NCBI RefSeq assembly: GCF_964204645.1
Contig: NC_134034.1
Span: forward strand, 11,093,414-11,157,413
Direction: 5' to 3'
Length of the DNA stretch: 64,000 nucleotides
Source of the DNA: Tubulanus polymorphus
Taxonomy: Eukaryota; Nemertea; Palaeonemertea; Tubulaniformes; Tubulanidae
Position numbers and translations under genes: made by a program. The number at the start of each line of letters is the position of its first letter. The stretch's first letter is position 1. Of this stretch, positions 35,194 to 54,584 are shown piece after piece. Below the pieces are notes generated by a model that saw only the letters and a program-made list of their open reading frames with translations, had not been told where the DNA came from and did not search any database.

Positions 35194-35316
35194 CGTCATA
35201 AGAACACGGACGACGCGACTGCTGTATTTGTAAAATCGGAATCGATTCATATTTCGACGCCGAGCGTCGAGACGAGTAACGAGAAGATCGTGAAACTCTG
35301 GATGAGATACGAATAG
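35194..35316 (+). CDS. Candidate terminal coding exon, unidentified
   Basis: After an acceptor-like CACATTTGACAG the + strand stays open for 40 codons to TAG 35314-35316. The peptide (ending SNEKIVKLWMRYE) and CG-rich codons look protein-like. A polyadenylation signal AATAAA follows at 35379-35384. A possible first exon of the same transcript ends at 31261. No internal exon was identified, so this could be a short gene, a gene fragment or chance. Confidence 0.3.
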   Translation, partial: RHKNTDDATAVFVKSESIHISTPSVETSNEKIVKLWMRYE

Positions 35317-35431
35317 TCAATGTGTGTGTTTATGGGTTTTGTTTCTCCTGATCGATCTTTCATTGTTGTAAAAATTAGAATAAACGTGTTTTCCTGAAGT
35401 TATGAGTCATTGATTTTTGTATCTTTAATCA

Positions 35432-38400
35432 GTGATTTTGGTTTCGAACCTGGGACGCCCCTGTTCATCCTCTATTCAGCATCACGACCACTCGGAATCA
35501 GCATCAGTAATTACTGGGTTCGACCCCGGTACATCCTCCATTCAGCATCAGGGCCACTCTGAATCAGTATCAGTAATTACTGGGTTCGAACCCGGCACAT
35601 CCCCGTACATCCTCTATTCAGCATCAGTACCGCTCTGAATCAGTTATTAGTTATCACCTTTGTTAGATATCAACATTTTACCGTACGGTGCTGCCTCTAT
35701 GCTCATCGTTAGCGGGATTTTTATACACTAACGTTAGTCAACTCTGGCAAGCTAAGGTCACGGAGTGTAACTAGACAGCGCGTTGATTGCCAAAGTTGAC
35801 TTTAGTTAGTGTATGAAAATCCCGCTAACGATGAGCATAGCGGCAGCACTGTACGGTCGGGACACCCCTACATCCTTTATTCAGCATCAGGACAACTCTG
35901 AATCACAACAATCGATGGGTTTGAACCCGGGATACCCCTGTACATCCTCTATTCAGCATCAGGTCCACTCTGAATCACAGTAATTGATGTGTTTGAACCC
36001 GGGATACCCCTGTACATCCTCTATTCAGCATCAGGACCACTCTGAATCAGTATCAGTAATTACTGGGTTTGAACCTGAGACACCCCCGTACATCCTCTAT
36101 TCAACATATGTACCGCTCTGAATCACAGCAATTGATGGGTTTGAACCCGGGATACCCCTGTACATCCTCTATTCAGCATCAGGACCACTCTTAATCAGTA
36201 TCAGTAATTACTGGGTCGAACTCGGGACACCCCCGTACATCCTCTATTCAGCATCAGTACCGCTCTGAATCAGTTATTAGTTATCACCTTTGTTAGATAT
36301 CAACATTTTACCGTACGGTGCTGCCTCTATGCTCATCGTTAGCGGGATTTTTATACACTAACGTTAGTCAACTCTGGCAAGCTAAGGTCACGGAGTGTAA
36401 CTAGACAGCGCGTTGATTGCCAAAGTTGACTTTAGTTAGTGTATGAAAATCCCGCTAACGATGAGCATAGCGGCAGCACTGTACGGTCGGGACACCCCTG
36501 TACATCCTTTATTCAGCATCAGGACAACTCTGAATCACAACAATCGATGGGTTTGAAACCGGGATACCCCTGTACATACTCTATTCAGCATCAGGACCAC
36601 TCTGAATCAGTATCAGTAATTACTGAGTTTGAACCCGTGACACCCCCGTACATCCTGTATTCAGCATCAGGTCCACTCTGAATCACAGTAATTGATGGGT
36701 TTGAACCCGGGATACCCCTGTACATCCTCTATTCAGCATCAGGACCACTCTGAATCAGTATCAGCAATTGATGGGTTTGAAACCGGGACACCCCCGTACA
36801 TCCTCTATTCAGCATCAGTACCGCTCTGAATCAGTTATCAGTAATTACTTTTGTTAAGATATCAATATTTTACCGTACGGTGCTGCCTCTATGCTCATCG
36901 TTAGCGGAATTTTTATACACTAACGTTAGTCAACTTTGGCAAGCTAAGGTCACGGAGTATAACTGGACAGCGCGTCGATTGCCAGAGTTGACTTTAGTTA
37001 GTGTATGAAAATCCCGCTAACGATGAGCATAGTGGCAGCACTGCACGGTCGGGACACCCCTACATCCTTTATTCAGCATTAGGACAACTCTGAATCACAG
37101 TAATTGATGGGTTGAACCCGGGACACCCTTGTACATCCTCTATTCAGCATCAGGACCACTCTGAATAACAGCAATTGATGGGTTTGAACCCGGGATACCC
37201 CTGTACATCCTCTATTCAGCATCAGGACCACTCTGAATAACAGCAATTGATGGGTTTGAACCCGGGATACCACTGTACATCCTCTATTCAGCATCAGGAC
37301 CACTCTGAATCAGTATCAGTAATTACTGAGTTCGAACTCGGGACACCCCCGTACATCCTCTATCCAGCATCAGTACCGCTCTGAATCAGTTATCAGTAAT
37401 TACTTTTGTTAAGATATCAATATTTTACCGTACAGTGCTGCCTCTATGCTCATCGTTAGCGGAATTTTTATACACTAACGTTAGTCAACTCTGGCAAGCT
37501 AAGGTCACGGAGTATAACTGGACAGCGCGTCGATTGCCAGAGTTGACTTTAGTTAGTGTATGAAAATCCCGCTAACGATGAGCATAGCGGCAGCACTGTA
37601 CGGTCGGACACACCTACATCCTTTATTCAGCATTAGGACAACTCTGAATCACAGCAATTGATGGGTTTGAACCCGGGATACCCCTGTACATCCTCTATTC
37701 AGCATCAGGACCACTCTGAATCAGTATCAGTAATTACTGAGTTTGAATCCGGGACACCCCGGTACATCCTCTATTCAGCATCAGGTCCACTCTGAATCAC
37801 AGTAATTGATGTGTTTGAACCCGGGATACCCCTGTACATCCTCTATTCAGCATCAGGACCACTCTGAATCAGTATCAGTAATTACTGGGTTTGAACCTGA
37901 GACACCCCCGTACATCCTCTATTCAACATATGTACCGCTCTGAATCACAGCAATTGATGGGTTTGAACCCGGGATACCCCTGTACATCCTCTATTCAGCA
38001 TCAGGACCACTCTTAATCAGTATCAGTAATTACTGGGTCGAACTCGGGACACCCCCGTACATCCTCTATTCAGCATCAGTACCGCTCTGAATCAGTTATT
38101 AGTTATCACCTTTGTTAGATATCAACATTTTACCGTACGGTGCTGCCTCTATGCTCATCGTTAGCGGGATTTTTATACACTAACGTTAGTCAACTCTGGC
38201 AAGCTAAGGTCACGGAGTGTAACTAGACAGCGCGTTGATTGCCAAAGTTGACTTTAGTTAGTGTATGAAAATCCCGCTAACGATGAGCATAGCGGCAGCA
38301 CTGTACGGTCGGGACACCCCTGTACATCCTTTATTCAGCATCAGGACAACTCTGAATCACAACAATCGATGGGTTTGAAACCGGGATACCCCTGTACATA

Positions 38401-41400
38401 CTCTATTCAGCATCAGGACCACTCTGAATCAGTATCAGTAATTACTGAGTTTGAACCCGTGACACCCCCGTACATCCTCTATTCAGCATCAGGTCCACTC
38501 TGAATCACAGTAATTGATGGGTTTGAACCCGGGATACCCCTGTACATCCTCTATTCAGCATCAGGACCACTCTGAATCAGTATCAGCAATTGATGGGTTT
38601 GAAACCGGGATACCCCTGTACATCCCCTTTTCAGCATCAGGACCACTCTGAATCAGTATCAGTAATTACTGGGTTCGAACTCAGGACACCCCCGTACATC
38701 CTCTATCCAGCATCAGTACCGCTCTGAATCAGTTATCAGTAATTACTTTTGTTAAGATATCAATATTTTACCGTACGGTGCTGCCTCTATGCTCATCGTT
38801 AGCGGAATTTTTATACACTAACGTTAGTCAACTTTGGCAAGCTAAGGTCACGGAGTATAACTGGACAGCGCGTCGATTGCCAGAGTTGACTTTAGTTAGT
38901 GTATGAAAATCCCGCTAACGATGAGCATAGTGGCAGCACTGCACGGTCGGGACACCCCTACATCCTTTATTCAGCATTAGGACAACTCTGAATCACAGTA
39001 ATTGATGGGTTGAACCCGGGACACCCTTGTACATCCTCTATTCAGCATCAGGACCACTCTGAATAACAGCAATTGATGGGTTTGAACCCGGGATACCCCT
39101 GTACATCCTCTATTCAGCATCAGGACCACTCTGAATAACAGCAATTGATGGGTTTGAACCCGGGATACCACTGTACATCCTCTATTCAGCATCAGGACCA
39201 CTCTGAATCAGTATCAGTAATTACTGAGTTCGAACTCGGGACACCCCCGTACATCCTCTATCCAGCATCAGTACCGCTCTGAATCAGTTATCAGTAATTA
39301 CTTTTGTTAAGATATCAATATTTTACCGTACAGTGCTGCCTCTATGCTCATCGTTAGCGGAATTTTTATACACTAACGTTAGTCGACTCTGGCAAGCTAA
39401 GGTCACGGAGTATAACTGGACAGCGCGTCGATTGCCAGAGTTGACTTTAGTTAGTGTATGAAAATCCCGCTAACGATGAGCATAGCGGCAGCACTGTACG
39501 GTCGGACACACCTACATCCTTTATTCAGCATTAGGACAACTCTGAATCACAGCAATTGATGGGTTTGAACCCGGGATACCCCTGTACATCCTCTATTCAG
39601 CATCAGGACCACTCTGAATCAGTATCAGTAATTACTGGGTTTGAACTCGGGACACCCCCGTACATCCTCTATTCAGCATCAGGTCCACTCTGAATCACAG
39701 TAATTGATGGGTTTGAACCCGGGATACTCCTGTACATCCTCTATTCAGCATCAGGACCACTCTGAATCAGTGTCAGCAATTGATGGGTTTGAACCCGGGA
39801 TACCCCTGTACATCCTCTATTCAGCATCAGGACCACTCTGAATCAGTATCAGTAATTACTGGGTTTGAACCCGAGACACCCCCGTACATGCTCTATTCAG
39901 CATTTGTACCGCTCTGAATCACAGCAATTGATGGGTTTGAACCCGGGATACCCCTGTACATCCTCTATTCAGCATCAGGACCACTCTTAATCAGTATCAG
40001 TAATTACTGGGTCGAACTCGGGACACCCCCGTACATCCTCTATTCAGCATCAGTACCGCTCTGAATCAGTTATTAGTTATCACCTTTGTTAGATATCAAC
40101 ATTTTACCGTACGGTGCTGCCTCTATGCTCATCGTTAGCGGGATTTTTATACACTAACGTTAGTCAACTCTGGCAAGCTAAGGTCACGGAGTGTAACTAG
40201 ACAGCGCGTTGATTGCCAAAGTTGACTTTAGTTAGTGTATGAAAATCCCGCTAACGATGAGCATAGCGGCAGCACTGTACGGTCGGGACACCCCTGTACA
40301 TCCTTTATTCAGCATCAGGACAACTCTGAATCACAACAATCGATGGGTTTGAAACCGGGATACCCCTGTACATACTCTATTCAGCATCAGGACCACTCTG
40401 AATCAGTATCAGTAATTACTGGGTCGAACTCGGGACACCCCCGTACATCCTCTATTCAGCATCAGGACCACTCTGAATCAGTATCAGTAATTACTGGGTT
40501 TGAACCCGAGACACCCCCGTACATCCGCTATTCAGCATCAGTACCGCTCTGAATCAGTTATCAGTAATTACGATATCAATATTTTACCGTACGGTGCTGC
40601 CTCTATGCTCATCGTTAGCGGAATTTTTATACACTAACTAAAGTCAACTCTGGCAAGCTAAGGTCACGGAGTATAACTGGACAGCGCGTCGATTGCCAGA
40701 GTTGACTTCAGTTAGTGTATGAAAGTATGAAAATCCCGCTAACGATGAGCATAGCGGCATCACTGTACGGTCGGGACGCCCCTACATCCTTTATTCAGCA
40801 TTAGGACAACTCTGAATCACAGTAATTGATGGGTTTGAACCCGGGACACCCCTGTACATCCTCTATTCAGCATCAGGACCACTCTGAAGAACAGCAATTG
40901 ATGGGTTTGAACCCGGGATACCCCTGTACATCCTCTATTCAGCATCAGGACCGCTCTGAATCAGTATCAGTAATTACTGGGTTCGAACTCGGGACACCCC
41001 CGTACATCCTCTATTCAGCATCAGTACCGCTCTGAATCAGTTATCAGTAATTACTTTTGTTAAGATATCAATATTTTACCGTACGGTGCTGCCTCTATGC
41101 TCATCGTTAGCGGAATTTTTATACACTAACTAAAGTCAACTCTGGCAAGCTAAGGTCACGGAGTATAACTGGACAGCGCGTCGATTGCCAGAGTTGACTT
41201 TAGTTAGTGTATGAAAATCCCGCTAACGATGAGCATAGCGGCAGCACTGTACGGTCGGACACCCTACATCCTTTATTCAGCATTAGGACAACTCTGAATC
41301 ACAGCAATTGATGGGTTTGAACCCGGGATACCCCTGTACATCCTCTATTCAGCATCAGGACCACTCTGAATCAGTATCAGTAATTACTGGGTTTGAACCC

Positions 41401-43125
41401 GAGACACCCCCGTACATCCGCTATTCAGCATCAGTACCGCTCTGAATCAGTTATCAGTAATTACGATATCAATATTTTACCGTACGTTGCTGCCTCTATG
41501 CTCATCGTTAGCGGAAATTTTACACACTAACGTTAGTCAACTCTGGCAAGCTAAGGTCACGGAGTATAACTGGACAGCGCGTCGATTGCCAGAGTTGACT
41601 TCAGTTAGTGTATGAAAGTATGAAAATCCCGCTAACGATGAGCATAGCGGCATCACTGTACGGTCGGGACACCCCTACATCCTTTATTCAGCATCAGGAC
41701 AACTCTGAATCACAGTAATTGATGGGTTTGAACCCGGGATACCCCTTTACATCCTCTATTCAGCATCAGGACCACACTGAATCAATATCAGTAATTACTG
41801 GGTTTGAACCCGAGACACCCCCGTACATCCTCTATTCAGCATAAGGACCACTCTGAATCACAGCAATTGATGGGTCTGAACCCGGGATACCCCTGTACAT
41901 CCTCTATTCAGCATAAGGACCACTCTGAATCACAGCAATTGATGGGTTTGAACTCGGGACACTCCTGTACATCCTTTATCCATCAGGACCACTCTGAATC
42001 ACAGCAATTTATGGGTTTGAACCCGGGATACCCCTGTACATCCTCTATTCAGCATCAGGACCACTCTGAATCACAGCAATCGATGGGTTTGAACCCGGGA
42101 CACCCCTGTATATCCTTTATCCATCAGGACCACTCTGAATCACAGCAATCGATGGGTTTGAACCCGGGACACCCCTGTATATCCTTTATCCATCAGGACC
42201 ACTCTGAATCACAGCAATCGATGGGTTTGAACCCGGGACACCCCTGTATATCCTTTATCCATCAGGACCACTCTGAATCACAGCAATCGATGGGTTCGAA
42301 CCCGGGATACCCCTGTACATCCTCTATTCATCACCAGGACCACTCTGAATCAGTATCAGTAATTACTGGGTTTGAACCCGGGACACCCCCGTACATCCTC
42401 TACTCAGCATCAGTACCGCTCTGAATCAGTTATCAGTAATTACTTTCGTTAAGATATCAACATTTTACCGTACGGTGCTGCCTATATGCTCATCGTTAGC
42501 GGAATTTTTATACACTAACGTTAGTCAACTCTGGCAAGCTAAGGTCACGGAGTATAACTGGACAGCGCGTCGATTGCCAGAGTTGACTTTAGTTAGTGTA
42601 TGAAAATCCCGCTAACGATGAGCATAGCGGCAGCACTGTACGGTCGGTACACCCCTGTTCATCCTTTATCCATCAGGACCACTCTGAATCACAGTAATAA
42701 CTGGTTTTGAACCCGAGACACCTCCGTACATCCTCTATTCAGCATCAGGACCACTCTGAATCAGTATCAGTAATTACTGGGTCGAACTCGGGACACCCCC
42801 GTACATCCTCTATTCAGCATCAGAACCGCTCTGAATCAGTTATCAGTAATTACTTTTGTTAAGATATCAACCTTTTACCGTACGGTGCTGCCTCAATGCT
42901 CATCGTTAGCGGGATTTTTATACACTAACGTTAGTCATCTCTGGCAAGCTAAGGTCACGGATTATAACTGGACAGCGCGTCGATTGCCAGAGTTGACTTA
43001 AGTTAGTGTATGAAAATCCCGCTAACGACGAGCATAGCGGCAGCACTGTACGGTCGGGACACCCCTGTACATCCTTTATTCAGCATCAGGACCACTCTGA
43101 ACCAGTATCAGTAATTACTGGGTTC
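35432..43125. repeat. Composite satellite: 72/76-bp monomers with 13 embedded MITE copies
   Basis: Monomers share TTGAACCCGGGACACCCC, GTACATCCTCTATTCAGCAT and CAGGACCACTCTGAATCA. Two flavours differ in the linker: TATCAGTAATTACTGGG (76 bp) or CACAGCAATTGATGGG (72 bp). Thirteen ~180-bp palindromic elements interrupt the array at about 35677, 36308, 36870, 37424, 38130, 38768, 39322, 40103, 40583, 41077, 41477, 42467 and 42867. Blocks recur at spacings of 1822 bp (36241/38063) and 1974 bp (38063/40037), showing a higher-order repeat. Open frames inside are translations of the monomer and have no independent support. Confidence 0.92.
35677..35853. mobile_element. Palindromic MITE inside the satellite (first of 13 copies)
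   Basis: Begins TTACCGTACGGTGCTGCCTC, has ATGCTCATCGTTAGCGGGAT in the left arm, and the inverse ATCCCGCTAACGATGAGCAT and GGCAGCACTGTACGGT in the right arm. The unpaired centre contains GCTAAGGTCACGGAG. The arms are about 70 bp each. No coding capacity. Confidence 0.85.
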
Positions 43126-43129
43126 GAAC

Positions 43130-43560
43130 CTTAGAGACGATCAGGAGGTCATCGGCTACATTTACCGAAAGCATGAAGAAAATAAAAACAATGATTTTTA
43201 CAAGAGAAACACAAATCTCACGTAATTAATCATGTAATGTTAACACCAAAAGAAGGAAACTGGGTACCACTTTTAAAGGCAAAGTTAACTATTCAGGACT
43301 CTGCTTCTGTATATAAAATTCAAACCGATCATCAGTGGAAATATCAAATTAGCGGGTGGTGAAATATATATGCCGTCACAAAATATTGCCGAAGGGCACT
43401 TAGATTTTAGACCGTACAAACAATGTATTGGGCAATACGGTCTGGATCCGCCCCTGATGGCTATAGTGGCAATCAAATTTCGTAATTACTCTTCGGCAGC
43501 TCAACACTCGCTTCTAACCAGTCAACAAGCGTTAGTGTGTCCGGGTTGAAGTGGTAAGCT
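43130..43560 (+). pseudogene. Unidentified broken coding-like sequence
   Basis: Just after the satellite ends, the + strand shows protein-like stretches in more than one frame: one near 43137-43223 (DDQEVIGYIYRKHEEN), ending at a stop, and one from about 43305 to 43550 (includes LAGGEIYMPSQNIAEGHLDF and QYGLDPPLMAIVAIKF). At least one frameshift and stops separate them. This fits a decayed mobile or captured gene. I do not recognise the family. Confidence 0.3.
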
Positions 43561-46219
43561 GTATTGCCAATATTCGATTATCATGTTTTCCGGACATCCT
43601 CGTCTCCGCACAATGTTGGTGGAAATATTGGGTTGAAAAAAGAGGTGGATTGCAAAATAACAAAAAACCACTGACTGGTGAACTAACAAAGTTCAGAGAG
43701 AGTAGCTAAACAGATAAAGAATTTCAATCATATTTATTCTCATACAGTGTACAACAATTATACAAAATGCCAGGTCTGTGCTCGAGGAATTATAACGTAA
43801 GCTCCTCAAACACGCTGACTGTATTTCAAAAACAGTCCAACCATGGACGTATAAACTATTAACTATAGTTTATACATCCATGGTCCAACCATAGACTCTT
43901 AAACAGAAACGTCTATGGCCCACAACCATGGACTCTCGAGTCCACGGCTCCCCGCACTAAAACCAGAGATAAATACTCTGGAAAGCGTAAGATTTAATGA
44001 ATCGATCTGATTTACATTTTTACTCTTTAAAATTTGACCCGGCCGGCCACCTATCTACCAAGGTATTACTTTAAAATCATGATCAAGCTAACCATAGCAT
44101 ACCGGGCAGCTGGAAATGAACTGATCACAAATTTCATTGATTTATGAAATGACCCGGTTGATCAGGAAAAACAAGGTATCATTTTTAGCCTTGACTCAGA
44201 TTATTCATTAATAAAATTACAAGCTTTTAATATCACATAACAAAATTACACAAAGAATTGTAAACTTTGATCCATAAAACACCGACAATTTGGGACTAGT
44301 CTGAATGTCTAAGACTATTAATTTGACATTTCATGATGTCACCGGGCATGAGTGACACTTGATTATTTCATGAAATATGAAGCATTCTATCATATCAACT
44401 ATACAGCAAATGACAATGTAAGAAAGATTTCTGTTTATACAAAAAACATATCTCCAGCATATAAACATTAAAGCTGGACATAAGATCACAAATTCACTCA
44501 AATAATCAATCTCTCATTTCATTTCATTAACATTATTTTTACAAGAAAACTGAAATTTTGCAAACTTTGCTTTGTATTCGAGGAATTATCAGTTCTTCGT
44601 TAACCAATGGGTGAACTGTATTTGAAACAAAAAAACAGTTCAACATAAAAGGATTACAATCAGAGATAAAACCTAAAGATTAACTCTGGAAAGCTTGAGA
44701 TTAGCTAATCAATCTTTATTTTCATTTTCATTTGAATTATTTTCCAAGATAACTAGAGTTTTACAAGATAACTAGAGTTTTTCTAACTTTGCCTGAGATT
44801 TTCAAACATTGTCAGTTCGCTCATTTAATACGTTATTTCAGGGAAAACATGACAAAAATTTTACTATCGATAACTAATCACGTTTATAGCTGTTTAACAT
44901 TATTTCTAAAAAAGAGTAAAATGTATCTCCCAGATATTATCCCTAAAACAATTAACAGTTACAGCAGTGACAGGGTGTGATATATAGGTAAAAGGACGCA
45001 TGATCTTTCATCAGTTATTTGAAGCATTCTATCGAAACAGATATTTTTTAGTGTGTTTGATTTAGTTAAGGTTTATGGTTATTTGTTTTGTTTATTACTG
45101 AGCCGATAGAACGCTTAAAACAACAACAGAAAGGATCTCAAGAGGTTGGGAAACACGGAGAAGGTTGTTCTATGAAAGAAGAACCTTTAATAATTGGATT
45201 AAGTTGATTAGAAAAAATGCCTGATGATGAAGGCCCTATATAGAGTATTTACTAATTATTTGTTGGTTTTGTTTATTTTTATTACTTATCATTTAATTAG
45301 TTTTTTTTGTTATGTATTTTTTTATTAATTGTTTTTTTAATGTATTTTTCTTAATCATGTTCTATGTATTTTGTACTGTTTATTACAATCTACATCATCA
45401 GGAATTTTTTATCGGTGAAATTATGGGCTCACTTAAAAAAGTGCTACAAATTCACTGCTGCACCTAAATAATAGTTTATTATAAAACACCCCGATTAGTA
45501 TGAAAGCCACTCAACCTTTTGATATGGATGACAATGAAAGAAGTTAAAACAGCTATAAACAAAATTAAAACGATCAAAATCAAGTTCAGGACTAATAACG
45601 TTCCAACATCCTTTATTGCATTTAAAAGTTGCAACTGTTTAACTGACTACGCTCTCCCTTTTGAACATTTAGGCTATGCAAATCATTTTCACTCAATAAA
45701 ATATAAAATGAATCACTATTTCTAATATCAATTATCGAATAAAGACTAAGAGAGTAATTCATTCTATGAACTATTTGATTATTACAAATTAAGCAAAGCT
45801 ATGTTTAACTAAAGTATGAAGCTTATCTGAACTATCCTGTCGATATTATATCTCAATTTCAACTGACCTACAAGTCAAACTGAGACGCTGAACGCGATCA
45901 ATACCATGAATTAATGGAGCTTAATTTTATGAGACTCCAAGAAGGAACTTTAAGGACTTAAATGACTCATCTGTTTCACATATCTAAACAGTTTGCCTAA
46001 TCAATATAAAGAATCAGGAGGATGCCATTTTATTGAAATATTCAAATATGAATAGAAGGCCCAGAGACCAAATTACCTAATTTTCATTAATCAACATTTC
46101 AACAACTAATCAACTATTTCTTTAGTTTATTCTGCCCCTTCAAATAGACAGTGAATTTTGTAAACTAATGTTACACATCAGACTGATTTGTAAAAAGGTG
46201 ATACGTAAAATAAATCAAT
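43561..46219. repeat. AT-rich region with an old ~0.7-kb tandem duplication
   Basis: 43740-44400 and 44540-45040 share, in order, CGAGGAATTAT, AACAGT(C/T)CAAC, an AACTCTGGAAAGC-type block and GAAGCATTCTATC. No coding exon seen. TTTATT at 43733-43738 could be a - strand polyadenylation signal (AATAAA). 43841-43884 is a small perfect hairpin around CCATGGACGTATAAACTA. Confidence 0.4.
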
Positions 46220-46495
46220 ACTTCACATATTCTACTGTCTCTGCTGCTCCTGAATAAGTGTTTATAAGACACGCATTGTCTGTGCTGCTCCTGAATAAGT
46301 GTTTATAAGATACGCATTGTCTGTGCTGCTCCTGAATAAGTGTTTATAAGATACGCATTGTCTGTGCTGCTCCTGAATAAGTGTTTATAAGATACGCAAT
46401 GTCTGTGCTGCTCCTGAATAAGTGTTCTACGCATTGTCTCTGCTGCTCCTGAATAATTGTTTACAAGATACGCAATGTCTCTGCTCCACCAAATG
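46220..46495. repeat. 41-bp minisatellite, block 1
   Basis: About six units of TGCTGCTCCTGAATAAGTGT plus TTATAAGATACGCATTGTCTG. The identical family reappears at 47430-47725 inside a different satellite. Confidence 0.9.
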
Positions 46496-46499
46496 TAGA

Positions 46500-47110
46500 A
46501 GAAATCCATCCGATGCTGGGTGAATTTCTCATCTGGACTTCAGCAGTTAAATTCAAGTTGGATTCATTCTGCTGACTGTTTTAATCAGTAGATTATAGAT
46601 GGTTAGTTGATCTTAGTATGGGCTTTTTCTCATAGATGTGATTCAGCTGAAAAGAGTTAAAGAAAATATCCTGTATTCACACAATATTTCATATAACATT
46701 AATCATAATAATTTCCATGTGAATCAACTTACCTGTCAAGATTGCTGAGTATCGGCTAGGATTGTCTTAGTTGGTTCGAGTTAAATTCGTTGGACTCTTC
46801 CGTGGTAGTTGATGAGTTCAATTCAAGTTGTACCTTCTATGATTGCTGTGTTCATTATCGGCGAAGTTCTCCTAAGTTGGTTAGTTCTTGAGTTTCATTC
46901 GAATCGGCCCCTTCTGTGCGCTGTTCTCTAATCGGCAGATTTCTGATGATTCGTCGACCTCAAGCTCTTGTTTGAGTTGGTGTCCCTTACAAACCTACCA
47001 CACCTGCCGCGAGCGAAACAGGCGTTTTTTTCTAAATCGGAAATCGAAGTACAGATATAGTTGTGTGATCGGCGGTCGAGTTTACAGAATATTTTTTCTT
47101 TAAATCCAAG
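46500..47110 (-). other. Possible - strand exon with strong donor at about 46739
   Basis: The - strand reads CTTGACAG|GTAAGT at this point, a near-ideal donor. The surrounding 46640-46750 is similar to 52935-53045 near the acidic exon, where the donor is lost. No coding function is apparent; it might be a 5' UTR or non-coding exon. Confidence 0.2.
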
Positions 47111-47429
47111 CACATAATTGGAAATTTCTCTGCCTATTCTAATATCGAGATTTTGGATATCTATATTACATGGTTAACTTTTTTTCTGCCTATTTCAAAA
47201 ATTCGAGATTTTGGGTATCTATATAACAAGGTTAACTTTTTTTCTGCCTTTTTCAATATATCTAGATTTTGGATATCTATATTACAAGGTTAATTTTTTT
47301 TCTGCCTATTTGAATACATCTCGATTTTGGATATCTATATTACAAGGTTAATTTTTTTTCTGCCTATTTGCATACATCTAGATTTTAGATATCGATGTTA
47401 CACGGTTAACTTTATTTCTGCCTATTTGA

Positions 47430-47725
47430 ATAAGTGTTTATAAGATACACATTGTCTGTGCTGCTCCTGAATAAGTGTTTATAAGATACGCATTGTCTCT
47501 GCTGCTCCTGAATAAGTGTGTATAAGATACACATTGTCTGTGCTGCTCCTGAATAAGTGTTTATAAGATACGCATTGTCTGTGCTGCTCCTGAACAAGTG
47601 TTTATAAGATACGCATTGTCTGTGCTGCTCCTGAATGAGTGTTTATAAGATACGCATTGTCTGTGCTGCTCCTGAATAGGTGTTCATAAGATACGCATTG
47701 TCTCAGCTGCTCCTGGTTAATTGTT
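47430..47725. repeat. 41-bp minisatellite, block 2, inside the AT satellite
   Basis: About seven units of the same 41-bp repeat as 46220-46495, with satellite DNA on both sides. Confidence 0.9.
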
Positions 47726-49785
47726 TATACATCTGGATATCTGGTATATCTATATTATAAGGTTAGCTTTTTTCATCTGCCTATTTAAATACATCTAGAT
47801 TTTGGATATCTATATTACAAGGTTAATTTTTTTTCTGCCTTATTTATTACATCGAGATTTTGGATATCTATATTACAAGGGTAATTTTTTTCTGCCTATT
47901 TCAATACATCTAGATTTTGGATATCTATATTACAAGGTTAACTCTCTTTTCTGCCTAATTTATTACATCTAGATTTTGGATATCTATATTACAAGGTTAA
48001 TTCTCTTTTCTGCCTAATTTATTACATCGAGATTTTGGATATCTATATTACAAGGTTAACTTTTTTCTGCCTATTTGAATACATCTAGATTTTTGATATC
48101 TATATTACAAGGTTAACTTTTTTTTCTGCCTATTTCAAAACATCTAGATTTTGGATATACATATATTACAAGATTGATTTTTTTCTGCCTATTTAAATAC
48201 ATCTAGATTTTGGATATCTATATTACAAGGTTAATTTTTTTTCTGCCTAATTTATTACATCTAGATTTTGGATATCTATATTACAAGGTTAACTTTTTTT
48301 TCTGCCTATTTCAAAACATCTAGATTTTGGATATACATATATTACAAGATTGATTTTTTTCTGCCTATTTAAATACATCTAGATTTTGGATATCTATATT
48401 ACAAGGTTAATTTTTTTTCTGCCTAATTTATTACATCTAGATTTTGGATATCTATATTACAAGGTTAATTTTTTTTCTGCCTAATTTATTACATCTAGAT
48501 TTTGGATATCTATATTACAAGGATAAATTTTTTTTCAGCCTATTTCAAAACATCTAGATTTTGGATATCTATATTACAAGATTGATTTTTTTCTGCCTAT
48601 TTAAATACATCTAGATTTTGGATATCTATATAACAAGGTTAATTTTTTTTCTGCCTAATTTATTACATCAAGATTTTGGATATCTATATTACAAGATTAA
48701 CTTTTTTTCTTCCTATTTGAAAACATCTAGATTTTGGATATACATATATTACAAGATTGATTTTTTTCTGCCTATTTAAATACATCTAGATTTTGGATAT
48801 CTATATTACAAGGTTAATTTTTTTTCTGCCTAATTTATTACATCTAGATTTTGGATATCTATATTACAAGGTTAACTTTTTTTTCTGCCTATTTCAAAAC
48901 ATCTAGATTTTGGATATACATATATTACAAGATTGATTTTTTTCTGCCTATTTAAATACATCTAGATTTTGGATATCTATATTACAAGGTTAATTTTTTT
49001 CTGCCTAATTTATTACATCTAGATTTTGGATATCTATATTACAAGGTTAACTTTTTTTTCTGCCTATTTCAAAACATCTAGATTTTGGATATCTATATTA
49101 CAAGATTGATTTTTTTCTGCCTATTTAAATACATCTAGATTTTGGATATCTATATTACAAGGTTAATTTTTTTTCTGCCTAATTTATTACATCAAGATTT
49201 TGGATATCTTTATTACAAGGTTAACTTTTTTTCTTCCTATTTGAAAACATCTAGATTTTGGATATACATATATTACAAGATTGATTTTTTTCTGCCTATT
49301 TCAATACATCTAGATTTTGGATATCTATATTACAAGGTTAATTCTTTTTTCTGCCTAATTTATTACATCGAGATTTTGGATATCTATATTACAAGGTTAA
49401 TTTTTTTTCTGCCTATTTCAATACATCTAGATTTTGGATATCTATATTACAAGGTTAATTCTTTTTTCTGCCTAATTTATTACATCGAGATTTTGGATAT
49501 CTATATAACAAGGTTAATTGTTTTTCTGCCTATTTCAAAACATCTAGATTTTGGATATCTATATTACAAGATTGATTTTTTTTCTGCCTATATAAATACA
49601 TCTAGATTTTGGATATCTATATTACAAGGTTAATTCTTTTTTCTGCCTAATTTATTACATCGAGATTTTGGATATCTATATTACAAGGTTAATTCTTTTT
49701 CTGCCTAATTTATTACATCGAGATTTTGGATATCTATATTACAAGGTTAGTTTTTTTTCTTCCTATTTAAAACATCTAGATTTTT

Positions 49786-49920
<135 letters not shown>

Positions 49921-50240
49921 CAAGATTGATTTTTTTTCTGCCTATTTAAATACATCTAGATTTTGGATATCTATATTACAAGGTTAATTTTTTTTCTGCC
50001 TAATTTATTACATCCAGATTTTGGATATCTATATTACAAGGTTAATTTTTTCTGCCTATTACAATATATCAAGACTTTTGATATCTATATTACAAGGTTA
50101 ACTATTTTTCTGCCTATTTGAATACATCTAGATTTTGGATATCTATATTACAAGGTTAACTTTTTTCCCCTATTTCAAAACATCTAGATATTGGATATGT
50201 ATATTACAAGGTTAACTTTTTTACCGCCTATTTCAAATCA

Positions 50241-52930
50241 TTGAGATTTAGACATAAGAATCCAGAATTCAGCAAAGTCTTTTTAAAGATTCAATAAATC
50301 CTTCGCACAAGAGCCAGAGTTATAGTTCCTGTATTCTTTTGATATCAACCGATATTAAATTATACAATTGTCTTATCAACCCCTATGGTTTGGATTCGAG
50401 CACTTTTGAGATGAAGATACTGAATTAATCTTCATCGTAGATACCTAATCAGTCTACTTAAGTCCTCTATGATTAAAATTTTCTCCGACAATATTTTATG
50501 CGGGGCTTGACATGTCTACACGAGAAGAATTTCAGATCCGGTACAAATTTGGATTGATCACTATTTCAAACTGCTAATTTTGCATCAGAGCTTTCGATAT
50601 CTAGTTTGACGAACCCAGACATCCCCAAAACCTAACTGATTCAACAGATCCCACACACATGTGGCCTAGTTAGACGCAGATGACATTGCACGATACAGTC
50701 GTCTCATCCACTGCGCTATTTTTTGAATAATTTTCACTTATATTCATTATATTGAATTGATTTTAATTAATCTTCTAGATATCTAACGCAATCCGTTAAT
50801 TAGTAATCATACTAGCTTCATTTTAATGTCAGTTAAATTCGTCACTACTTGAATTCATTAGAACTTAAGATACAAGCACATTTTTAGTGGTAAATTAGAA
50901 ATTCCCTTATAGCCGAATTGCTATTTAATCTTTATTTCCCTTTTACAGTACACTGTGTATAAGACCGAAAGACCTTGTTATGACTGGACCTCCCTGGTGC
51001 GGTGCGAGTCATGATGCTGGAATATAGATTGAAGGAGAGGGGTTAGTAAAAGAGAGCTATTAGCAAGAGGGATAAGACCTAAGTTTAGGATATCCTGTCA
51101 GAATAAGGCTCTCAATCTGATATACACAGTGAAATTGAAAATATTCCCCCTTCCAAATTCAGGAATGTATTTGTGCACAGATTTGTTTTATCTCCCTTCG
51201 ATCGGAAGTAAATCTTCGTTAAATGATTTTGGCAATATGTATCAAAACTAATACAGCTGAATGAAGACACAATAGGTTCACTTAAGATACAGATAAATAA
51301 ATGTGCTCAGATACACATGTATCAGCTTTAAATGTCCATGGACCTAAATTAAAAATATTTTCATATAACAATTGAATTTAACCCTAATTGTAGATATCTA
51401 AGTAATACGTTAATGAGTAATTCAAGCTATATTCTAATTGTCAGTTAAACTATATCTATTATGCGTCACTTGACACACAGTTATGCTTTTAGATATTATT
51501 TGAATCAGTTAGGTTTCGGTAAATTTTGGCAATATTGAAGAGCATGACCAGTCGCCGTAATTAGGAGTTTGAGATGCAAGTACTGATCAGTCGATGAGAC
51601 TGATTCAGATGTGCTCATACATATCAGCTATATTTAAATTGTAAGTTTAACAACATTTATATTATGGACCTGTATTACATATAGTTTTTGATCTAACATG
51701 AAATATTGATTGTGGAATCTTAATTGTGGATATCTAAGCCATTTGTTAATGAGCAATTTGTCCTAGTTATATGTATGATAATTGTCAGTTAATCAATAAT
51801 CATAGCGCAAAACAAGGCACATGGTATGGCTCTGGGGAATGATTTGAATCGATTTAAGCTTTGTTTGATTCTAGATTTGTCAAAGTGCTGAGACGTAATC
51901 ATAGCTTCTAAAAGATCCACAGTCCATAGTTTTCCCCCATGTATATTACACCAGACCTCGATAGAGCCCTAGACACTTTTTATACATCTTTCCGCGGAGA
52001 AATTCATTAATGCAATGGGTAAAGCAGCATATAATATATACTGTAAAGTGCCTGAATGTTTATAAATGTATCAATATACTATTTGTAAAAAAATCTATTA
52101 ACCGACGATGAAGTTTAATTGATATATATCTTTACAAGTAAAGCCAGCCTAAATGTATACAGGGCCCTAAAATATCTACACCAGAAGAATTTCTCGTCAA
52201 ACATTATAAGATATTGAATGATTGCTAATATCTAAGCGATTAATTAGTAAATTGTCCTATCTCTGTATCTTGATTGTCAGTTAAACAATAGTCATATGAG
52301 GCCTGAAATATAGCGCCAAGCAAAAAGATGATGGCGTCTCGCCAGATGGCGCTATGTTACGGTGCCGCTCCAAAAGTCAATTCGGGCGTTATCTGCCTAG
52401 CCAAAAGCAATATGGCTATAGTGTATTTTCCCAGGGAATGTATTCGAAGTAAATATCTACGGTACATTCGAAAAATTACAAATGTCACATTGGATATTGA
52501 ATTTACCTTAATTGTACATACTTAAAAAAATCTGAATTAATAATTGACCAATCTACATTTTAATTATCAGCCAAAGTAGGCCTACATTTATAAGGGACCT
52601 CACTCATTGATTTTGTCTAATAGTGTAAATATTTAAGCAATCATTGCCCTAGTTACATTTCATTTTACTATCAACAATGTACCGGCCACAGAGCCTCAAT
52701 AAAGTAGTGCGGAGATGCCGAGCTTGACCAGCGTCTCTATCCTCTCCAGTGCCTATGCATTTTGCTCCAGGTATGAAAAATCAACTAAGCTTTATGTCCT
52801 GGTATGTATCCATTCCTGTTGCTTATGCAGAATGAGCTCAAGACTGCCAGGTTCGGTTGCCAGGTGGAGTCTTTTGTGGTCACTTCTGGTGGGTAGATTT
52901 TAGGTTGATATCACGCTGGGCCTTTCCAGA
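50241..52930. repeat. AT-rich region with scattered copies of a ~65-bp core
   Basis: A core resembling GATATCTAAG...GTTAATGAGTAAT...ATTGTCAGTTAAAC recurs at about 50776, 51391, 51728, 52225, 52513 and 52614. A tRNA-like A box TAGCGCAGTGG on the - strand near 50710-50720 suggests a SINE remnant. No gene seen. Confidence 0.45.
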
Positions 52931-53042
52931 TTAAGTTTAGCTGAAATGAGCAAAAGAATGATATCCTGTAGTTACACAATCCTCTCTGTATCATACATCG
53001 TAATTTACATGTGTATCAACTTAACTTTCAATATTGCTGAGT

Positions 53043-53117
53043 TCAGTGTTCTTTTTTTTCGGCATCGTCTTCGTTGTCGTCACCTTCAGCATCTTCTTCT
53101 TCTTCATCTTGGGAATC
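53043..53117 (-). CDS. Acidic C-terminal exon of an unidentified - strand gene (calnexin-like?)
   Basis: On the - strand a strong acceptor (long T tract, TTTAATTTCAG) is followed by 24 codons and TGA at 53045-53043. The peptide is almost all acidic (DSQDEEEEDAEGDD, ending AEKKEH). Such tails occur on calnexin, HMG proteins and histone chaperones. A very hydrophobic stretch (PPWILLLAIFAALPLLLLF) lies upstream on the same strand at about 54083-54150, which would suit a calnexin transmembrane segment, but its exon borders are not convincing. No lumenal-domain exons are visible upstream, where EHHADH lies on the other strand. Confidence 0.4.
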   Translation of the reverse strand, partial: DSQDEEEEDAEGDDNEDDAEKKEH

Positions 53118-53149
53118 CTGAAATTAAAAAAAAGAGAAGAGCGATGAAA

Positions 53150-53465
53150 ACCTGGTACGGAACAAAACTAATGTCAGAAAGCTTTACAGCTCTCCGTCTT
53201 CGGTCACATGCCGAGAACACCAGACAAAGAGCCAGCCAGGAATATACTGCCCTCTACACGCCCTCACACAGAACACGAAAACCAGGATGACAACGCCTTA
53301 CTTTCACCATTTACCGACAGGGTGTGCCGGATGACGTCAGTAACTGACAAACCTATCAAATTGCCCAAGCCAAAAATCAGGCAGCGCAACTGGATTGCCC
53401 GCACTAGCACTCAAAGGAAGACAAGACTTAATCCATGCCCGAAGCAACCCACAGGGAATCAATGA
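53150..53465 (+). pseudogene. LINE-like C-terminal coding remnant, arm 1
   Basis: The + frame reads VFGHMPRTPDKEPARNILPS and continues to a stop at 53465. The GHxxRM-type phrase resembles the tail that follows reverse transcriptase in many non-LTR retrotransposons. It is about 200 bp similar to the inverted copy at 53775-53985. Confidence 0.4.
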
Positions 53466-53712
53466 ATACTAACACGCAAAGGAAGACAGGGAAATTAATC
53501 CCTGCCCGAAGCAATCCCTTAAAAGGAATCAATGAATGCTAGCACGCAAGCGATCCCGCAGTGAATCAATGAATCCTAGCACGCAAAGGAAGACAGGGAA
53601 ATTAATCCCTGCCCGAAGCAATCCCTTAAAAGGAATCAATGAATGCTAGAACGCAAAGGAAGACAAGACTAAATCTTTGTCCGAAGCAATTCCTGAAAAG
53701 GAATCAATGAAT
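53457..53712. repeat. ~60-70-bp tandem repeat
   Basis: Three to four units of AATGAATNCTAGCACGCAAA, GGAAGACAGGGAAATTAATC and GCCCGAAGCAATCCC between the two LINE-like arms. Confidence 0.75.
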
Positions 53713-53774
53713 ACTAGTAGACAGTCCAGCTTTACCACTCCATTTTTAACCAGTCCAGTGCAATCGGACCGACT

Positions 53775-53985
53775 TGCCCGTCATTGACGTCACCCAGCAC
53801 ACTCTGTAGATAGGTGGGGAGAGTGAGGCCTCGTCATCCTGGTTTCCGTGTTCCGTATGAGGGCGTGTAGTGGGCAGCCATTTCCTGACCGACTCTTTGT
53901 CTGACATCCTCGACACGTGACCGGCGATGGAGAGCCGACGCTTTCGGACATTAGTTTTGTTCCAGCAAACGTTGAAATCGGCCCT
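53775..53985 (-). pseudogene. LINE-like C-terminal coding remnant, arm 2 (inverted)
   Basis: The - frame reads NKTNVRKRRLSIAGHVSRM and then KWLPTTRPHTEHGNQDD, homologous to arm 1. RRLxxxGHVxRM is the usual form in endonuclease/reverse-transcriptase retroelements. A TTTTTCAG acceptor-like motif precedes it. Confidence 0.4.
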
Positions 53986-54299
53986 GAAAAATAAAACGGA
54001 TTAATAAACACGGAACAATACAGGACAGCACAGATACGAACAGTAACACATAAAACATAAAGACGTCGTTCCTCAGGAAGCAGGAACAAGAGCAGGAGCG
54101 GGAGCGCAGCGAAAATCGCCAGGAGGAGAATCCACGGTGGCATGTTCACAGTGTAAGTAAGCTGAGGTGAATGGCCTATGCTTGTGTACACCGTGGTTAG
54201 CCGGTGACGTATTCAATAGCGCGTGTAAATGATATCGACAAACTTTGAAAAACCGCAATTGTGTCTCTTTTGTTGAATGGATTTACATTATGAAAGGTT

Positions 54300-54584
54300 C
54301 CACCGCCGGGTTGAATACGCGCCAGTAGTCAGATGTGAGTAGACTGGTTACCTGAGATAGAGACCGGTAACCAGTCTAGTCACTTCGCGGCCCCGGCTGC
54401 ATAAAATTCCGCGGTCTTTAGAACTTAGTGATGTTACTTATTTTCTTTATTGCGTAAATAAACTTATCTATATATTTCTAAAGTGAAAGGTTTGTGTTGA
54501 TTTAATCATGCAGTTCAGCAGTTTTCGGATAGATGGCAGCATTGTATGTAACGGGAATCAATATTATTGAATTGAGTTGTCAAG
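54300..54584. other. Non-coding upstream of the first visible EHHADH exon
   Basis: Contains the inverted repeat GACTGGTTACC / GGTAACCAGTC at 54343-54380, a motif also found at 30796 and 34436. No enoyl-CoA hydratase exon seen. Confidence 0.4.

Follow-up and report, generated by a model that had tools for sequence, protein, structure and literature searches.

An array of short tandem repeats in the genome of the nemertean Tubulanus polymorphus is, judged from sequence comparison, better seen as the variable internal repeat of an interspersed element that is long and apparently non-coding (approximately 35.3-54.3 kb of the window) than as a satellite in its own right. The palindromes that stud the array probably go back to a MITE-like element that inserted once into this host-element repeat, spread with the host and was then drawn into local array growth and hairpin-linked inversions. 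The window is the whole stretch of 64,000 nucleotides analysed here (C10:11093414-11157413), and the genome searched comprises 267.8 Mb in 77 contigs. The window also holds exons with RRM, KH and 3HCDH_N domains; those with RRM and KH domains, at 15.5-18.2 kb, are presumably reminiscent of an IMP/IGF2BP gene.

A tandem array bearing palindromes in one orientation

The array extends over approximately 35431..43131 on the + strand and is built of 72/76-bp monomers carrying 13 palindromes of 178-186 bp. Searching with nhmmer returned 71 whole and partial monomer matches, every one (71/71) on the + strand, and no monomer match elsewhere in the window. The palindromes share a single orientation (13/13, + strand) and lie, from the first to the thirteenth, at 35680..35857, 36310..36487, 36872..37049, 37427..37604, 38132..38309, 38770..38947, 39325..39502, 40106..40283, 40586..40771, 41078..41255, 41479..41664, 42467..42644 and 42877..43054. 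Eleven of the 13 are 178 bp long; the other two, the ninth and the eleventh, measure 186 bp and carry the same 8-bp duplication in the right arm. The third copy, folded as single-stranded DNA over 36850-37060, gave -66.8 kcal/mol, whereas 200 dinucleotide shuffles averaged -22.7 and none of them (0/200) was as good (z = -13.5).

On the left, the palindromes are joined to the monomers by a bridge, GATATCAAYATTTT, which is identical in 12/13 copies and has one change in copy 13. The right context, CGGGACACCCC, matches exactly in 8/13; copies 4, 7, 9, 10 and 12 differ from it slightly. The description given in the first-pass annotation, of palindromes of about 180 bp set in the same monomer context within an array of 72/76-bp monomers, is thereby borne out. 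When read against an ordinary 76-bp monomer, the palindrome together with its 22-bp left bridge occupies the position of GGGTTTGAACC, so the insertion was not a clean addition. Each monomer also contains a near-perfect palindrome of its own, GGGTTTGAACCC or GGGTTCGAACCC (for example at 42040-42115), and this stretch is exactly what the MITE-like element replaces. We take the motif to resemble a tRNA T-arm or B box. ARAGORN found no tRNA genes, and Rfam gave no structured RNA match in the window at gathering scores and none in 35200-43200 up to E = 1.

An array probably internal to an interspersed element

Among the fetched loci, all right-flank copies with an intact start (15/15) join the monomer at almost the same base and in the monomer's orientation; at least three further fetched copies (L016, L018 and L080), outside these 15, lack the beginning of the right flank. 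The right flank (43128..47126, +) is repeated elsewhere, with at least 43 matches in the genome to 43125-43560 (40 of 175 candidates scored) and a copy at C3:24.72M that reaches 47126 at 90-94%. On the other side, the left flank adjoining the array (35314..35430, +) recurs at five other places at 82-89% (C2:547771, C4:1441662, C10:14260133, C5:383145 and C1:9591364). The segment 35228-35313 also matches four places, where it is set off by an extra 230-890 bp, and 33.7-35.2 kb, left of the host element, consists of other dispersed repeats. It is because the right junction is fixed in 15/15 copies and the left flank is shared with five other places that we place the array within an interspersed element. 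A classical satellite forms independent arrays without fixed flanks, and these two observations describe something else; the earlier proposal that a MITE had been captured by a satellite must therefore be revised.

Next to the right flank comes an AT-rich 58-bp minisatellite (47125..50233, +), likewise found beside the right flank in the C3:24.72M copy, followed by distal blocks of the host element at 50259..52311 (+) and 52451..54335 (+). Between these blocks the window copy has about 140 bp (52312..52450, unstranded) that none of the relatives listed contains, their sequence passing from query 622 to 762. Up to 54335, the distal blocks recur behind the right flank with order and orientation unchanged at eleven other loci (C4:24.04M, C4:0.67M, C2:2.92M, C2:23.61M, C4:5.61M, C3:7.14M, C1:6.74M, C1:0.57M, C5:0.37M, C4:24.57M and C1:23.82M), as judged from coordinates among the matches listed. 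Similarity to the window stops at 54335, and the relatives read (6/6) share sequence beyond that point. The window copy stops at a GGTTACC/GGTAACC hairpin (54336-54380), which resembles the start of another repeat. Within the distal block, a 70/107-bp tandem repeat lies between the two arms of an inverted repeat (53159-53350 and 53774-53963; about 190 bp, 79% identity).

No Pfam family scored above cut-off in ten of the longest stop-free pieces listed for 43.1-54.3 kb, a selection that leaves out the 58-bp minisatellite and does not comprise every piece; for one of them TMEM18 came up as a weak match that did not reach the cut-off (E 0.057). A comparison of 33.0-35.6 kb with 53-55 kb for terminal inverted repeats yielded short weak matches only. 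Neither ends of the host element nor transposition proteins were found, which counts against the explanation that we favour.

A probable single insertion copied with its surroundings

The same bridge stands at the junction of 108 of the 118 non-redundant palindromes in the fetched loci, window copies included, when up to 5 mismatches in 13 are allowed on the left and up to 4 on the right. It lies on the left only in 104, on both sides in three and on the right only in one, a nearly symmetrical copy read on the opposite strand. Nine of the ten palindromes without it lie outside monomers, and one is cut by the end of its locus. In the window, all 13 copies have in common 11 fixed differences between left and right arms in 92 aligned columns, and the arms of one copy are as divergent (0.186) as those of different copies (0.185); divergence is 0.036 among left arms and 0.029 among right arms. 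Relationships among the palindromes, which it had been suggested to compare with those of the adjacent monomers, follow those of the left flank (Mantel r 0.65, p 0.0003). On the right, the correlation holds for the second stretch of 76 bp (r 0.38, p 0.0025) and is not significant for the first (r 0.23, p 0.086). Collectively, the derivation of the window palindromes from one insertion that was later copied is supported at the level of sequence.

A dispersed, MITE-like palindrome

The arm motif of the palindrome has 974 matches genome-wide, against 4 for a reversed control (up to 2 mismatches). Ten sites carry the palindrome with no monomers present: a tandem of units of about 670 bp (L067-L070), L073, L074, L077, L078, L110, L111, L112, L116 and L117, five of the ten having been read over 261 bp each. 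Their flanks are unrelated, leaving aside a 12-bp match and the copies that belong to one array, and the palindromes end close to the same bases while sharing neither bridge nor monomers. Since the palindrome is thus also dispersed alone at ten unrelated sites, we regard it as MITE-like; it has terminal inverted repeats without coding capacity, within 178 bp and with arms that differ by about 18-19%. The ends lie near CCRTAAGG-GTGCTGCC, and a TA lies outside the core, at a distance of 6 or 8 bp, in 10/12 left ends and 6/12 right ends, positions that hint at a TA target but do not prove one. No clean target duplication was found at the sites read, by eye and by TA offset. From its dispersal, inverted-repeat arms and non-coding sequence, the palindrome is likely a MITE, as first annotated. 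Five of eight short stretches fetched as single-arm matches were satellite-free and three stood in monomer context, as did all stretches (8/8) fetched as relatives of L074.

The tandem at L067-L070 (C1:2862204-2867756) places the palindrome in a different array, of units of about 670 bp, with no 72/76-bp monomers. Elsewhere, a DNA transposon sits within a palindrome loop (L079 1571-3018 and L080 to about 1447; C1:9591678-9597277). It contains an ORF matching Pfam DDE_Tnp_4 (E 2.9e-40), has matching inverted ends and, by eye, an apparent 3-bp duplication, and we assume it to be Harbinger-like. A second loop insertion, at L071 1290-1440 (reverse strand), is flanked by what appears by eye to be a 10-bp direct repeat, GGGTTACGGA.

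Locus-specific growth of arrays

In the window, the block 35915..38455 (+), with a period of about 1.9 kb comprising three palindromes, has a tandem duplicate downstream at offsets of 1822, 1898 and 1974, which shift by single 76-bp monomers. The duplicate is 98.8% identical over 35915-36822, 99.0% over 36772-37829 and 97.9% over 37795-38455. Other loci have periods of their own: palindromes are spaced by 341-342 bp at C2:816k (3/3 spacings) and C4:1.44M (4/6), by 492-494 bp at C2:445k (6/7), and in a 483/403/664/947 cycle of 2497 bp at C10:14.26M, seen twice in full and with variants. Among the 99 of 120 palindromes used for this comparison, the mean distance is 0.036 within loci and 0.048 between them (0/999 permutations as extreme), and 66 of 87 palindromes have their nearest neighbour within their own locus. 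Array size varies: the window has 13 palindromes and C10:14.26M at least 23, and the other right-flank copies, over the 1.5 kb read, have no more than one or two alongside a small number of monomers. Judged by these comparisons, growth is two-level, with dispersal of the host element followed by locus-specific higher-order expansion. Several large arrays occur less than 1 Mb from a contig end at C10:14.26M, C2:0.36-0.82M, C4:0.67M and C1:0.03-0.57M.

Inverted flanks beside palindromes

Fold-back inverted duplications place inverted copies beside the point at which the strand folds back. We surveyed monomer strand across 42 merged regions holding 608 monomers and 120 palindromes and found 17 strand changes. 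Nine lie across a palindrome, among 99 palindrome-flanked monomer pairs, the remaining 90/99 showing no inversion; seven lie between adjacent monomers (7/471 pairs), all at the far ends of inverted blocks that begin at palindromes. The last, at C1:571766, spans a 1359-bp spacer without a palindrome and looks like a meeting of two head-to-head arrays that have separate left flanks. Since these 9 + 7 changes go back to no more than two independent events, the association is overstated by the Fisher test (p 0.0004).

One event, at C7:20.24M, placed an inverted copy of the left flank directly after the palindrome in two palindromes, after which the array runs forward again. In these the palindrome arm gains 117 bp (92 and 96% identity), and the third palindrome of the locus is ordinary. 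The other event defines a subfamily of seven palindromes at six loci, with an identical junction, GTGTCC + TGAATCAG, in which the right flank recurs, inverted, to the left of the palindrome. A third case may be L105, which has the bridge on both sides in the 266 bp read. Compared with other fold-back inverted duplications, these inverted copies are very small (about 120-150 bp) and lie inside a tandem array. From sequence we infer that the geometry of both events fits template switching at the hairpin. There is thus some real evidence for the hairpin-driven instability that had been guessed at, in the form of two independent inverted duplications anchored at palindromes, a small sample, although most flanked pairs are uninverted. 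Loci were fetched mostly through palindrome or monomer queries, so that the sample is biased towards arrays.

Discussion

In the history that we consider probable, a MITE-like palindrome would have entered one monomer of the host element's internal tandem repeat; the common junction is observed, and we infer the order of events. The host element would then have dispersed, bearing monomers and palindrome along, as the fixed flanks and the block order at many loci indicate. At some loci, the array would have expanded locally in units of a palindrome plus several monomers, in line with the locus-specific periods and the closer kinship within loci. The palindrome is predicted to fold as a stable hairpin, and replication or repair stalled at it may sometimes copy one flank in inverted orientation beside the palindrome, template switching being suggested by the geometry of the two examples.

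It is conceivable that the MITE was captured by a classical satellite, which went on to spread alone, via rolling circles or ectopic exchange, with the shared flanks as sequence caught en route. The arrays do have at least two left contexts, one of them around C1:231k and C1:576k, and large arrays lie near the end of C10 (16.5 kb). However, a single array junction in 15/15 right-flank copies and an order of blocks kept up to 11 kb downstream make this account improbable, and the array could reach other loci without any rolling circles of satellite. Thirteen separate MITE insertions with a strong site preference can be given practically no credence: the family does transpose or disperse, as the ten satellite-free sites attest, yet the orientation of the window copies (13/13), their identical bridge, found in 108/118 palindromes, and the 11 arm differences fixed among 92 columns led us to reject independent insertions and to uphold the earlier claim that there had been one insertion and not thirteen.

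The palindrome might instead have arisen as an inverted duplication within the array and spread from there without ever having been a transposon, the satellite-free copies being decayed escapees. Such an origin would agree with the lack of a clean target duplication at the sites read and with a palindrome that took the place of 11 bp of monomer instead of being added to it. It agrees less well with satellite-free copies whose ends fall close to the same bases, without bridge or monomers, in unrelated flanks, or with the TA found outside the core at most left ends (10/12) and half of the right ends (6/12), itself a hint and no proof of a TA target. We consider an origin within the array unlikely, and prefer the single insertion of a MITE-like element into the repeat of the host.

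Each of these ingredients is known, and their nested combination is unusual, though not unprecedented; our literature search found no report of this nesting, which is no proof of absence. In PMC7492417, the Cg_HINE elements of Crassostrea gigas, which are non-autonomous Helentrons, are described as carrying dispersed satellite-like arrays as central repeats between fixed flanks, and as having a right flank defined as a 60-bp consensus that includes a subTIR and a 3' palindrome. The present array likewise forms central tandem repeats between conserved left and right flanks. It differs from Cg_HINE, as portrayed there, in that no short right flank was seen, the shared sequence reaching at least 11 kb, and in that the array itself bears a 178-bp palindrome every few monomers (PMC7492417). 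In Messor ants, a satellite DNA with inserted MITE and mariner provides another case of a MITE integrated in a tandem repeat; unlike that satellite, as described there, the present array is internal to a dispersed element, with the palindrome within higher-order units and with fold-back inversions (PMC5139131). Xenopus Xstir and miDNA4 combine a MITE and a tandem repeat in one unit, for which hairpin models of repeat growth are discussed in PMC12628747. There, the tandem repeats lie inside the MITE, and here the nesting is reversed, the palindrome lying inside the tandem repeat.

An array that reads as a satellite within a single window can turn out to be the interior of an interspersed element. 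A more far-reaching idea, possible though doubtful, is that the palindrome acts as a built-in site of fork stalling and template switching, by which the array would rearrange and grow by itself. If true, the tandem repeat of a mobile element has gained an instability motor of its own. Within one genome, these loci form a natural series: the same hairpin occurs in arrays that differ greatly in size, some of which have inverted flanks and others not. Such a series makes it possible to examine at natural loci what is mostly approached with engineered constructs, namely whether tandem repeats expand because of a hairpin.
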